Below, one piece after another: positions 10,328 to 20,550 of a stretch of 36,231 nucleotides of DNA (the stretch's first letter is position 1; the number at the start of each line of letters is the position of its first letter). Source of the DNA: Nanobdellota archaeon (GTDB taxonomy: Archaea; Nanobdellota; Nanobdellia; Woesearchaeales; WJIZ01); assembly GCA_023140175.1 (NCBI GenBank), contig JAGLMD010000008.1, positions 1-36,231 of the forward strand, written 5' to 3'. The position numbers and the translations under genes are program-made. The notes under the pieces were generated by a model. The model saw only the letters and a list, made by a program, of their open reading frames with translations, made no database searches and was not told where the DNA came from.

Positions 10328-10336
10328 ATATTGAAT

Positions 10337-10474
10337 GTCGGTGAGGGCGGAATGGAAAGCCGCTAAACCTACAGACACATAAACGATGACAATACCTTAC
10401 GACCTCGAAAGAGCGATGGGGAAGGAGTTGACTTGGGAAGTGTCCTAAAGCAAGTTCGAATCTTGCCACTGACA
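10337..10474 (+). tRNA. tRNA-like element with long insert and class II variable arm
   Basis: The acceptor strands GTCGGTG (10337-10343) and CACTGAC (10467-10473) pair over 7 bp. A canonical T arm GCAAG-TTCGAAT-CTTGC lies at 10450-10466, and a D-arm-like GCGG...CCGC near 10347-10363. Just before the T arm, TTGGGA and TCCTAA pair as a long variable arm of the Leu/Ser type. Between D arm and variable arm are about 70 nt where no proper anticodon stem is evident. It may be a tRNA with an intron, or a tRNA-like RNA. The amino-acid identity is not assignable. Confidence 0.45.
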
Positions 10475-10479
10475 ATCAT

Positions 10480-10548
10480 AGTGGGTTAGGACAATGGGAG
10501 TTCACTGAACGCAGTTTAGTTATGGGGGTTCGAATCCCCTGCCTGCTA
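10480..10548 (+). tRNA. Putative tRNA-Cys (GCA), short
   Basis: The acceptor AGTGGGT / GCCTGCT pairs over 7 bp with wobbles. The D arm is GGAC-AATGGGA-GTTC, the anticodon arm ACTGA-ACGCAGT-TTAGT gives anticodon GCA, the variable region is 3 nt, and the T arm is GGGGG-TTCGAAT-CCCCT, with A73. Unusual points: position 33 is C instead of the near-universal U, base 26 is missing, and the total is only 69 nt. It may be a functional divergent tRNA or a decaying one. Confidence 0.6.
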
Positions 10549-10573
10549 TAAATAATCATAAGAGATGATGAAT

Positions 10574-11254
10574 ATGACACAAGAAAGGTTAGCTATTCAA
10601 AAAGTCAAGTATAGTTATGGTAAATATAACAAATTTGACGACAAGGAACAATGGATAAGAATAACTGAGGGTTGTCCTCATAATTGTCCTTATTGTTATG
10701 AACCTAAAAAAATCAAAATATTTAACTGTCCGGATATTGTTCGTAATGAAGTTAAAATCATGGACATGAATATTTTGTGTAAACCTGAATCATTAGACAT
10801 AATTAAAAAGTTAGGCAATATAAAAGTAAATAATAAAGTTGTATATTATGAATTAATCTGTGGTATAGATTATAGATTTTTAACTTTAGACATTGCTATT
10901 GCTTTAAAACAAAGTAGGTTTAGAAAACTTAGACTTGCTTGGGATTGGTTTTATAAAGATCAAGTTAAAATTAAAGATTCATTATGTTTATTATTTAAAG
11001 CAGGTTATAGTCCAAAAGACATTATGATCTTTATGATTTGTAATTGGAAAATACCTTATGATGAATGTTGTAAAAAGTTAGACTTATGTAAAATTTGGAA
11101 TGTTCAAGTTGCAGACTGTTACTTTGACAACCAACTTGCACCTAATATAATCCCTGAGTTTTGGACTGCTATTGAGATCAAAAAGTTCAGGTCAAAGTGT
11201 AGGAAACATAATCAGTTAGTTAATTTTGGTATTGACCCAGAATTATCAAAATAA
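10574..11254 (+). CDS. Radical SAM superfamily protein
   Basis: A 226-residue protein from ATG 10574, chosen because GAGATGAT (10563-10570) precedes it; ATGs at 10565 and 10568 lie inside that site. Residues 34-41 are C-P-H-N-C-P-Y-C, the CxxxCxxC motif that ligates the [4Fe-4S] cluster for S-adenosylmethionine cleavage. Later segments (YYELICGIDYRFL; KLRLAWDWFYKDQ) have the beta-alpha barrel rhythm of the superfamily. Similar compact proteins of unknown substrate occur in other phages. Its neighbours are tRNA-like genes on one side and the pseudoknotted RNA on the other, so RNA modification is an attractive but unproven idea. Confidence 0.8.
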   Translation: MTQERLAIQKVKYSYGKYNKFDDKEQWIRITEGCPHNCPYCYEPKKIKIFNCPDIVRNEVKIMDMNILCKPESLDIIKKLGNIKVNNKVVYYELICGIDYRFLTLDIAIALKQSRFRKLRLAWDWFYKDQVKIKDSLCLLFKAGYSPKDIMIFMICNWKIPYDECCKKLDLCKIWNVQVADCYFDNQLAPNIIPEFWTAIEIKKFRSKCRKHNQLVNFGIDPELSK

Positions 11255-11262
11255 TCATAATT

Positions 11263-11403
11263 CCATCCGTCAAAGGACACATAGTAATCCTTAGATTATT
11301 ATGTAAAAGCGACTGGGCTTCCGCAAGATATGTGAAATAGTGTAAGAGGTTGAAAACCCTGTGAGACATATCTCAATCCCTGTCGCTGTCCGGCGGAAGA
11401 TGG
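11263..11403 (+). ncRNA. Candidate structured RNA with pseudoknot
   Basis: It fills the gap between the radical SAM gene and the next ORF. Paired segments seen directly: CCATC 11263-11267 / GATGG 11399-11403; GGACA 11275-11279 / TGTCC 11387-11391; an 11-bp hairpin 11279-11304; AGCGACTGGG 11308-11317 / CCCTGTCGCT 11378-11387 with one mismatch; AGATATGT 11326-11333 / ACATATCT 11366-11373; and a small GGTT/AACC hairpin near 11348-11357. CTTCCGC (11318-11324) is perfectly complementary to GCGGAAG (11393-11399) outside that stem, forming a pseudoknot. No RNA family is recognised. It may be a riboswitch-like leader, a ribozyme or a free ncRNA. Confidence 0.55.
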
Positions 11404-11433
11404 CAATATTGATAGAAAATAAGAAGTGATTAA

Positions 11434-11733
11434 ATGGGTACGAATTATTACACCAAGACTGATGAAGGGGAAGAATTACATATCGGCAAGTCAAGTTTCG
11501 GCTGGACATTCAGCTTCCATGCAACAGACGAAATTAGAAGCTATGAACACTGGCTGAAATATCTGAAAGACAGAAAGATATACGATGAATACGGCAAGGA
11601 CATATCTCTGAAGGATTTCAATAAGCTTGTGGAAGCGAAGAAAAGCAATAAACTAAATCATGCACTGGAGTGTATGGATGGAAGCTTCAGAGATGAGAAC
11701 GACAACAGTATGACTCCATGTGACTTCAGTTGA
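11434..11733 (+). CDS. Conserved phage-type protein (MGTNYY family)
   Basis: A 99-residue protein starting MGTNYYTK, with LHIGKSSFGWTFSFHA and an I-x-D-E-Y-G-K-D-I-S motif. Phage proteins with M-G-T-N-Y-Y, H-I-G-K-S-S-x-G-W and D-E-Y-G are widespread, often with a CxxC knuckle between the first two motifs. That knuckle is missing here. Function unknown. It is preceded by AGAAGTGAT and lies right after the pseudoknotted RNA. Codon use is less AT-rich than its neighbours, suggesting a separate origin. Confidence 0.65.
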   Translation: MGTNYYTKTDEGEELHIGKSSFGWTFSFHATDEIRSYEHWLKYLKDRKIYDEYGKDISLKDFNKLVEAKKSNKLNHALECMDGSFRDENDNSMTPCDFS

Positions 11734-15850: not shown

Positions 15851-16426
15851 ATGGAAATTGATAAAGAATTTAATAAAGGATATATTTTGATGTTATTATC
15901 AAGAATAAAACGAGAAGGTATGCAAGGACTCATTAATTTTATTGAAAAAGAAACGGATTATTTTGATGCTCCTGCAAGCACAAGATATCATTTATCTTGT
16001 CCTGGAGGATTAGCACAACACCATCGTAATGTATATGATTTTTTCAAGGATAGATGTAAAGAATTCAATCTTGGACTTAGCAAAGATTCTATAATAATTG
16101 TTAGTCTATTACATGATATATGCAAATGTGGATTATATCAAAAAACAAATTATTCATATAAATGTGATAATATCATAAAGAATCAAGGCCATGCAAAGCG
16201 TAGTATTGAATTATTGACTAAATACATAAAACTTACTGCTGAAGAAGAAGCCATCATAAAGTATCATATGGGAACGTTTGGCGTATTTGATTATAATGAT
16301 ATTGAGATAGGTGAATATAAGATTATAGATATACATAAATCAATCAAAAGATATGCATCAGTGCAGATATTCGCAGCTTGTGACATGGGCTCTTCCAAGT
16401 TTGAGAAATGTTTTGATAATAAATGA
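15851..16426 (+). CDS. HD-domain phosphohydrolase
   Basis: A 191-residue protein from ATG 15851 (AAGTGATTGAT upstream). Metal ligands of the HD superfamily are visible: His57 in GGLAQHHRN, His88-Asp89 in SLLHDICK, His114 in GHAKRS, His139 in KYHMG. The segment FDAPASTRYHLSCPGGLAQH is typical of phage HD hydrolases related to nucleotidases and nucleotide phosphohydrolases. It probably alters host nucleotide pools or signal nucleotides. The substrate cannot be told. Confidence 0.8.
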   Translation: MEIDKEFNKGYILMLLSRIKREGMQGLINFIEKETDYFDAPASTRYHLSCPGGLAQHHRNVYDFFKDRCKEFNLGLSKDSIIIVSLLHDICKCGLYQKTNYSYKCDNIIKNQGHAKRSIELLTKYIKLTAEEEAIIKYHMGTFGVFDYNDIEIGEYKIIDIHKSIKRYASVQIFAACDMGSSKFEKCFDNK

Positions 16427-18576: not shown

Positions 18577-20550
18577 ATGGACCTCCCACCAGAACTCATA
18601 GAGGCAATGCGCAAGCGAGATGTAAAGTTCTTAGTTAAACAACTATTTCCTAATATTGAAGCTGCGCAGAAGATAACGCCTATGCAATGTTATATCGTTA
18701 GGATTATTGCTTTTTCTGAAAAGAAAAGGATATCTATATCTGCATATACACGATATGGAAAGACACAAACTGTAGCAATAGCTGTTGCATTATATATCCT
18801 TATCAATGAAAATAAGCGAGTTAATTTTATTGGTCCCTCTGTAGATCTTGCAAGTCTTATCCGAGAATATATGGCTGATCTTATCCTTGATTGTGAACCT
18901 CTTCTTGAGATGGCAGACCTTGAAGCAACAGGTAAACAAAGACTTAAAAAAGAAGCTACAAAGAATCGGCTAACATTCAGTAATGGTTGTGAATATCGTG
19001 TAGTCACTGCACATGGTAAAGGATTCTCTGCTATGGGAAAGGGTGGGGATCTTAATTGTTTCCCAGAACATACAAATATCAATACAGACAGAGGTCTATT
19101 GGATATAAAAGATATTGTTGAATCAAAGATTGATTGTAGAATATTGAGTCTAAACCATAGAAACAATTCACTTGAGTATAAGCCAATATTAACTTATTTT
19201 AAAAATAATTCACAAGATTTTATAAAAATAATTACTTCTAAAAATAATATTATATGTACCCCAAATCATCCGATTTATACATCAAGAGGATATATTCCTG
19301 CAAAGGATTTATGTGTAATGGATAAAATTTATATGTGTAAGTTGTCATGCAAAGACAAACTACAAAAGAGAGATCTGAAAGAAATTCCTATCCAGAGAAT
19401 TGAAAAAATACATACTGACAAAAGACCAGTCTATAATTTAGAGATAAAAGACAATAATAATTATTTTGCTGATTCTATACTTGTCCATAATTGCATGGAT
19501 GAAGCAGCATTAATATCAAGAGAAGCATATGCGAAGATAACAAGAATGCTTGGAGATGATCCAGAAAACAGTATCCTTATAGAACTGATGAATCCTTGGG
19601 ATAGAGATACAAAAGCATTTGATCATAGTATCAGTCCTAGATTTGAGCGTATAGAAATAGATTATAGGATAGGGATTGAGGAAGGCCGGACAACACAGAC
19701 ATTTATTGATGAACAACGTGATGATATATCTCCTTTAGAATTCACTGTGTTGTATGATAGTAAGTTCCCAGATGAAAGTGAAGATTCCATACATTCTCTT
19801 AAGAAGATAGAACAAGCAGAAAAGAACAGATTCTATATAGAAGAGGATATCAAAGATATACTTAAGATAATCAATCATTCTAAAAAATATAAAGAATCTG
19901 AAGTAAAGATTGCCAAGAAAGAACTCAAAAGATATAAACGTATTATTTCTTGCGATCCTGCTGAAATGGGTCTTGATGAAACTGTCATAAAAAATGTATC
20001 TTCACAGGATGATAGATATTTTGAAGTCAATGATATGTATTCTGAATTTAAGAGTGACCCTATGGAACTTGTTGGAAAAATCATGAAACGTGCGCGAGAA
20101 TATATAGGATTCATTGTCCCTGGTGAGATACATATTGATAGAGTAGGTATAGGCTCAGGTGCATTCAGTAGATTAAAAGAATTGAAAAGTGAGTATAACA
20201 TGAAAAATCTAACTATTATCGGTTGTCATAATGGAGAGAGGCCTATATCTACGACAAAAGAATCAAAACGGAAAGGAAGAAATAAGAAAAAGGGAGAATT
20301 CAGTAATAAAAAGATAGAAAACAACTGGAGACTTAAAGATCTATTATTTGATAATTGTATATCCTTATATAATATTACAAAATATAAAGATTATAATAAG
20401 CTTAAGACACAGATGTTAGCGATGAAATGGAAGATAAACAGTTCAGAATTAAAAGAGATAATAACTCCTGTTGATTCACCGGATTTCAATGATGCTTTAG
20501 TTTATGCAATTTGGCGCGATCAACAGAAGCTGACATATTCCTTTATCTAA
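18577..20550 (+). CDS. terL: Terminase large subunit with embedded mini-intein
   Basis: The 657-residue precursor drives DNA packaging (ATPase) and cuts the genome (nuclease). The Walker A-like site is R59-Y-G-K-T63; the adenine-binding and motor segments follow. At residue 161 a 145-residue intein interrupts the Walker B region, and after splicing the extein (512 residues) reads GGDLN-CMDEAALIS, with D308-E309 (precursor numbering) as the catalytic acids. The RNase H-like nuclease domain has IISCDPAEMG, HIDRVGIGSG and DFNDALVYAIW, giving the acidic metal ligands. There is no ribosome binding site, only a hairpin upstream, so a leaderless or processed message after the tRNAs is possible. Confidence 0.9.
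   Translation: MDLPPELIEAMRKRDVKFLVKQLFPNIEAAQKITPMQCYIVRIIAFSEKKRISISAYTRYGKTQTVAIAVALYILINENKRVNFIGPSVDLASLIREYMADLILDCEPLLEMADLEATGKQRLKKEATKNRLTFSNGCEYRVVTAHGKGFSAMGKGGDLNCFPEHTNINTDRGLLDIKDIVESKIDCRILSLNHRNNSLEYKPILTYFKNNSQDFIKIITSKNNIICTPNHPIYTSRGYIPAKDLCVMDKIYMCKLSCKDKLQKRDLKEIPIQRIEKIHTDKRPVYNLEIKDNNNYFADSILVHNCMDEAALISREAYAKITRMLGDDPENSILIELMNPWDRDTKAFDHSISPRFERIEIDYRIGIEEGRTTQTFIDEQRDDISPLEFTVLYDSKFPDESEDSIHSLKKIEQAEKNRFYIEEDIKDILKIINHSKKYKESEVKIAKKELKRYKRIISCDPAEMGLDETVIKNVSSQDDRYFEVNDMYSEFKSDPMELVGKIMKRAREYIGFIVPGEIHIDRVGIGSGAFSRLKELKSEYNMKNLTIIGCHNGERPISTTKESKRKGRNKKKGEFSNKKIENNWRLKDLLFDNCISLYNITKYKDYNKLKTQMLAMKWKINSSELKEIITPVDSPDFNDALVYAIWRDQQKLTYSFI
19057..19491 (+). other. Mini-intein in TerL (no homing endonuclease)
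   Basis: 145 residues, starting at Cys (CFPEHTNINT) and ending V-H-N, followed by Cys+1 of the extein. Block A: CFPEHTNINTDRGLLDI. Block B: ICTPNHPIYTSRGYI with the T-x-x-H motif. Block F: VYNLEIKDNNNYFADSILVHN. Blocks C-E of a LAGLIDADG endonuclease are absent. All residues needed for standard splicing (Cys1, T-x-x-H, His-Asn, Cys+1) are present, so it should splice itself out. Confidence 0.9.

Follow-up and report, generated by a model that had tools for sequence, protein, structure and literature searches.

A 150-base GC-rich stretch, lying between a radical SAM gene and an MGTNYY family gene in a tailed virus of Woesearchaeota, is probably a real structured RNA. The reading as a structured RNA that fits none of the known families was supported by the stability of its fold, the GC pocket in which it lies, a bias of the fold towards the + strand and the absence of matches in Rfam. 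It is read here, tentatively and at a little less than even chances, as an orphan cis-acting + strand RNA in the 5' leader of the MGTNYY gene, where it could form a stable mRNA-end or processing element, although the details may differ.

The window, meaning the whole 36,231-nucleotide stretch of DNA that was analysed, was a contig of a 2.07-Mb genome bin. Tailed-virus genes were identified in it, namely a portal gene with a Mu-F domain, an SU10-like capsid protein and a terminase split by an intein-like domain, and the window belongs to a tailed virus of Woesearchaeota. The TATA-binding protein family was present in the bin and, among 14 control genomes, was detected only in the four archaea; the host of the virus is a Woesearchaeota-type archaeon. 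The terminase large subunit gene (18577-20550, +) was apparently split by a HINT domain at about residues 176-305, and in related viruses the terminase matches flanked both sides of the HINT insertion point.

The element was intergenic, as the first-pass annotation had stated, since the stop codon of the radical SAM gene occupied 11252-11254 and the MGTNYY gene started at 11434; the identities given there for both flanking genes were also borne out by phrog_9298 and phrog_12436. The element filled nearly the whole gap between them, and the main genes around it were all on the + strand. Relatives of the MGTNYY protein were present in bacterial viruses. The genes and the parts of the fold were placed as follows.

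10565-11254 (+), radical SAM gene, upstream neighbour of the element; phrog_9298, E 2.4e-11
about 11255-11413 (+), nested fold in full, which gives the element its revised limits; minimum free energy (MFE) -50.7 kcal/mol, z -5.37, 0/200 shuffles as stable
11260-11266 (+), 5' strand of the outer helix P0, AUUCCAU; pairs with 11400-11407, leaving one base bulged, and can coexist with the pseudoknot
11266-11271 (+), alternative extension of the outer helix, UCCGUC; pairs with GGCGGA at 11392-11397 in the MFE and centroid structures, excludes the pseudoknot
11275-11279 (+), 5' strand of P1, GGACA; pairs with UGUCC at 11387-11391
11280-11303 (+), hairpin 1, 10 bp with a CUUA loop
11304-11308 (+), three-way junction segment UAAAA
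11309-11317 (+), 5' strand of P3, GCGACuGGG; pairs with CCCuGUCGC at 11378-11386
11318-11324 (+), candidate pseudoknot strand CUUCCGC; perfectly complementary to 11393-11399 over 7 bp, about 4% by chance
11326-11373 (+), hairpin 2, AGAUAUGU/ACAUAUCU, interior weakly paired
11393-11399 (+), candidate pseudoknot strand GCGGAAG; complement of 11318-11324
11400-11407 (+), 3' strand of P0, AUGG(C)AAU; partner of 11260-11266
11434-11733 (+), MGTNYY family gene, downstream neighbour of the element; phrog_12436, E 9.5e-7

All the helices described in the first-pass annotation were recovered at the positions given for them, including the pair CTTCCGC (11318-11324) and GCGGAAG (11393-11399). The nested fold of 11263-11403 reached -47.8 kcal/mol, against -29.8 +/- 3.7 kcal/mol in shuffled sequences (z -4.9, 0/200 as stable), and an independent shuffle run gave z -5.15 with 0/300 as stable. 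When the flanks were included (11255-11413), the value of -50.7 kcal/mol corresponded to z -5.4. The element had the lowest energy for its composition among the 141-nt windows of the 36-kb stretch (both strands, step 20), while random windows (n=300) averaged z -0.2 +/- 1.15, the lowest being -3.8. The fold was also biased by strand, with z -5.15 on the + strand and -3.2 on the - strand, each relative to its own shuffles. The nested fold is thus real in a statistical sense, and the earlier statement that so many compatible pairs are improbable by chance held for the nested fold (z about -5) but not for the pseudoknot, which was at chance level.

The element had a GC content of 0.447, against 0.275 for the upstream radical SAM gene, 0.20 for the 30 bases that follow the element and 0.40 for the MGTNYY gene. 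Equally GC-rich windows made up only 0.7% of the region from 3 to 18.5 kb, and the sole other pocket was formed by two tRNA-like genes. In AT-rich genomes densely packed with genes, a GC-rich gap is an established sign of a structured RNA (PMC6429828). The element resembles the prokaryotic RNAs found by such GC-IGR analysis: its gap exceeds 100 nt and is GC-rich within a genome of that kind, it folds strongly, and it lies upstream of a gene. Those RNAs were accepted on covariation among many homologues (PMC6429828), whereas the element is a single sequence.

No coding signal was detected in the element, with stops in the + frames and no PHROG match, so a degraded coding region was not indicated by any test. 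A frameshift stimulator was also considered and dropped, since stops occurred in the frames through the element and inspection of the radical SAM stop revealed no slippery heptamer.

A stable fold is by itself no proof of function, and the stretch could be a functionless GC-rich intergenic remnant that arrived with the GC-richer MGTNYY gene, its helices being coincidental. This would agree with the GC content of that gene (0.40) and with the failure to find the gene in any of the 352 other genomes of the order that were searched, as well as with the lack of relatives of the element and the chance level of the pseudoknot. The nested fold, however, still had z about -5 after correction for composition and was the best of the window, and a functionless origin is considered rather unlikely.

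The pseudoknot is the weakest part of the finding, though it was the part that made the element look special. When the loop bases were permuted with the nested helices fixed, a perfect helix crossing them and 7 bp or longer arose in 117/3000 controls (4%), and whole-sequence shuffles contained one of at least 7 in 168/1000. A search pattern for the complete arrangement (P1, hairpin, P3 and adjacent pseudoknot) had 859 matches across 1.26 Mb of related DNA, compared with 830 in resampled sequence. On these three counts the pseudoknot was not beyond chance and its alleged improbability was not borne out; it is possible, statistically not significant, and may lock the fold. Accordingly, of the earlier label "unrecognised pseudoknotted RNA", the significant fold without a known family (z about -5, Rfam) stood and the pseudoknot did not.

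The outer helix and the pseudoknot had been said to share one base (11399) and to be possible alternative states, as in a riboswitch. The overlap was real, but it comprised five bases (11393-11397), because the best nested fold lengthened the outer helix by UCCGUC/GGCGGA; the shorter outer helix AUUCCAU/AUGGcAAU was fully compatible with the pseudoknot. The nested state had -50.7 kcal/mol, and the pseudoknot-compatible nested fold had -44.4 kcal/mol before pseudoknot stacking, with -10.4 kcal/mol for the seven pseudoknot pairs taken as a duplex (duplexfold). The usual pseudoknot penalty is about 9 kcal/mol, replacing the duplex initiation term. With this penalty little difference in stability is predicted between the two states, and they could not be ranked.

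A two-state, riboswitch-like switch, in which 11393-11397 would pair either in the outer helix or in the pseudoknot, would thus be energetically possible, with real overlap and states of nearly equal energy. Against it, the pseudoknot complement was within chance, the ribosome-binding site lay outside the element with its accessibility unchanged, and no ligand-related gene, homologue or conservation was seen. An expression platform, either a terminator or sequestration of the ribosome site, was sought between the element and the MGTNYY start and was absent, as was any T-run terminator after the element. The switch is unsupported on the grounds of the unchanged ribosome-site accessibility, the missing terminator and the lack of a riboswitch family match in Rfam, and it appears very improbable. 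The riboswitch and ribozyme readings are both without support.

The covariance search of Rfam 15 gave no match for the element at the gathering threshold, including riboswitches, self-cleaving ribozymes and viral elements, and at E up to 10 only snoRNA-like and SL2-like noise appeared, far below threshold; the first-pass annotation, which could name no riboswitch, ribozyme or ncRNA family, was therefore right on this point. ARAGORN, run on 11200-11480 with introns allowed, detected no tRNA, intron-containing tRNA or tmRNA. With blastn against phages, plasmids, the virus's own genome bin and 99 related genomes, only the window itself and short matches of low significance were returned. A covariance model was then built from the single element sequence, which detects only fairly close relatives, and was used on genome sets that overlap. 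It found only the window in 145 relatives, three weak matches at chance level (E 0.2-0.5 per genome) in 353 genomes of the order, and no homologue in 371 genomes of the phylum, in nine viral records with relatives of the flanking genes or in 65 with relatives of the capsid gene. With filters off, it gave only noise in two related viral contigs. Pattern scans of IMG/VR yielded chance matches only, those inspected looking unrelated and mostly coding DNA, and the model detected nothing around the matches of three such scans. The element is an orphan, and "unrecognised" holds only in that sense.

The capsid-gene search brought up 298 related viral stretches, and 80 of the 298 were kept. The stretches pointed to a large, mostly unnamed tailed-virus family in IMG/VR, with capsid genes 59-77% identical to that of the window and with Woesearchaeota records among the related genomes. 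One capsid relative (69%) was in a bin labelled as a candidate division WOR-3 bacterium, most likely a mis-binned archaeal virus contig. Seven of the longer related genomes had the head genes and some other genes in common with the window, but almost nothing in them corresponded to its accessory region (about 9-16 kb), to which both genes flanking the element belong. Radical SAM relatives in IMG/VR, 61-69% identical, were followed by other DNA, and the element was not found downstream of them. Two viral relatives of the MGTNYY gene directly adjoined their upstream gene, without such a leader.

In one related virus (IMGVR_UViG_3300008255_000082), a perfect 25-bp palindrome was present in a non-coding stretch at 15880-15945, with more long inverted repeats after it. 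The stretch reached -68 kcal/mol in 141 nt, gave no match in Rfam, and is possibly a replication or attachment site. The element itself might likewise act as DNA, as a replication or attachment site, instead of as RNA, since inverted repeats also occur as DNA features and the related virus has its palindrome in a gap. This is highly unlikely, because the + strand was favoured over the - strand relative to shuffles, the fold was branched instead of forming a single palindrome, and flanking repeats were absent apart from short ones.

The nearby tRNA-like RNAs noted in the first-pass annotation were located about 700 bases upstream of the element. For the first (10336-10475, +), ARAGORN with introns allowed and the fold showed an 8-bp acceptor stem, a D-arm and a T-arm, with an insertion of 51 bases in the anticodon loop; it was overlooked by the default ARAGORN and Rfam runs, and blastn found no relatives of it in phages. 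A tRNA-Cys(GCA)-like gene (10479-10549, +) followed it directly, scoring 32.1 bits with the Rfam tRNA model when searched alone. An identical 12-mer, AAATAATCATAA, was present at 10550-10561 and 11249-11260 (+), that is after the tRNA-Cys-like gene and before the element, and its 8-base core AATCATAA also lay beside tRNA-Thr (18354) and after tRNA-Val (18559). As a motif near RNA genes AATCATAA was dropped, since it was not enriched over the window.

Like the two tRNA-like genes, about 0.7 kb upstream, the element is probably a GC-rich structured RNA on the same strand, but unlike them it contains no tRNA or tmRNA detectable by ARAGORN. It could be a free-standing small noncoding RNA, processed from the transcript as the tRNA-like genes would be and acting in trans. 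Its GC pocket resembles that of the tRNA-like genes (10336-10549), the outer helix closes the fold on itself close to both flanking genes, and the identical 12 bases stand just before the element and just after the tRNA-Cys-like gene. On the other hand, no promoter or terminator of its own was recognisable, no homologues were found and the repeated 8-mer was not enriched, and the chance of a trans-acting RNA of this kind is regarded as fairly low.

The layout of the fold also recalls the class 1 xrRNAs of flaviviruses (PMC7527734, PMC5760640), in that a three-way junction is present and a segment of the P3 loop could pair just 3' of P1. The order of helices matches that of an xrRNA, with P1, a hairpin, P3 and a loop segment that would pair immediately downstream of P1 (PMC7527734), so that the element might block an exonuclease in a similar manner. 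The sequence conforms to this layout of three-way junction and pseudoknot, yet the same layout occurred at chance frequency in control DNA. In class 1 xrRNAs the junction between P2 and P3 is one conserved C or none (PMC7527734), whereas in the element it is UAAAA, five bases. In addition, the element has a further hairpin inserted beside the pseudoknot strand, is about twice the size, has no Rfam match and comes from another domain of life, and a ring is not inferable from secondary structure. The element is not assignable to xrRNA class 1, since its junction departs from the defining one and the layout often arises by chance, and by this analogy an exonuclease-blocking role would be very improbable. 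It would be just as far-fetched to suppose a new class of compact pseudoknotted RNA in DPANN viruses that blocks a host 5'-3' nuclease, sets and protects mRNA ends and has acquired a ring-like fold independently of the flaviviruses.

For the favoured reading as a cis-acting leader element, cotranscription with the neighbouring genes is probable, since the nearby genes were all on the + strand and no T-run was present between the element and the MGTNYY start. The element would then be transcribed within a polycistronic viral mRNA and, as part of the MGTNYY 5' leader, would act in cis. The stability of the fold, its + strand bias, the GC pocket and the lack of a coding signal also favour this reading. 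Its compact stem-junction could provide a stable new 5' boundary or processing point, and such a boundary may protect the downstream mRNA and uncouple the MGTNYY message from the upstream gene. No direct effect on initiation is predicted, because the ribosome-binding site was equally accessible with and without the element. This speaks against the leader reading, as do the failure to find a homologue in the collections searched and the two viral MGTNYY relatives that have no such leader. For a compact closed fold that heads a downstream gene in a polycistronic viral transcript, the most economical proposal would be that it sets or protects an mRNA end.

To our knowledge, little is known of viral RNA biology in DPANN archaea. 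At present the element has a well-supported fold and no relatives. Should it be real, it would represent a structured RNA in a virus that infects uncultivated DPANN archaea, and would provide a starting sequence from which a family may be found as more such viruses are sequenced.
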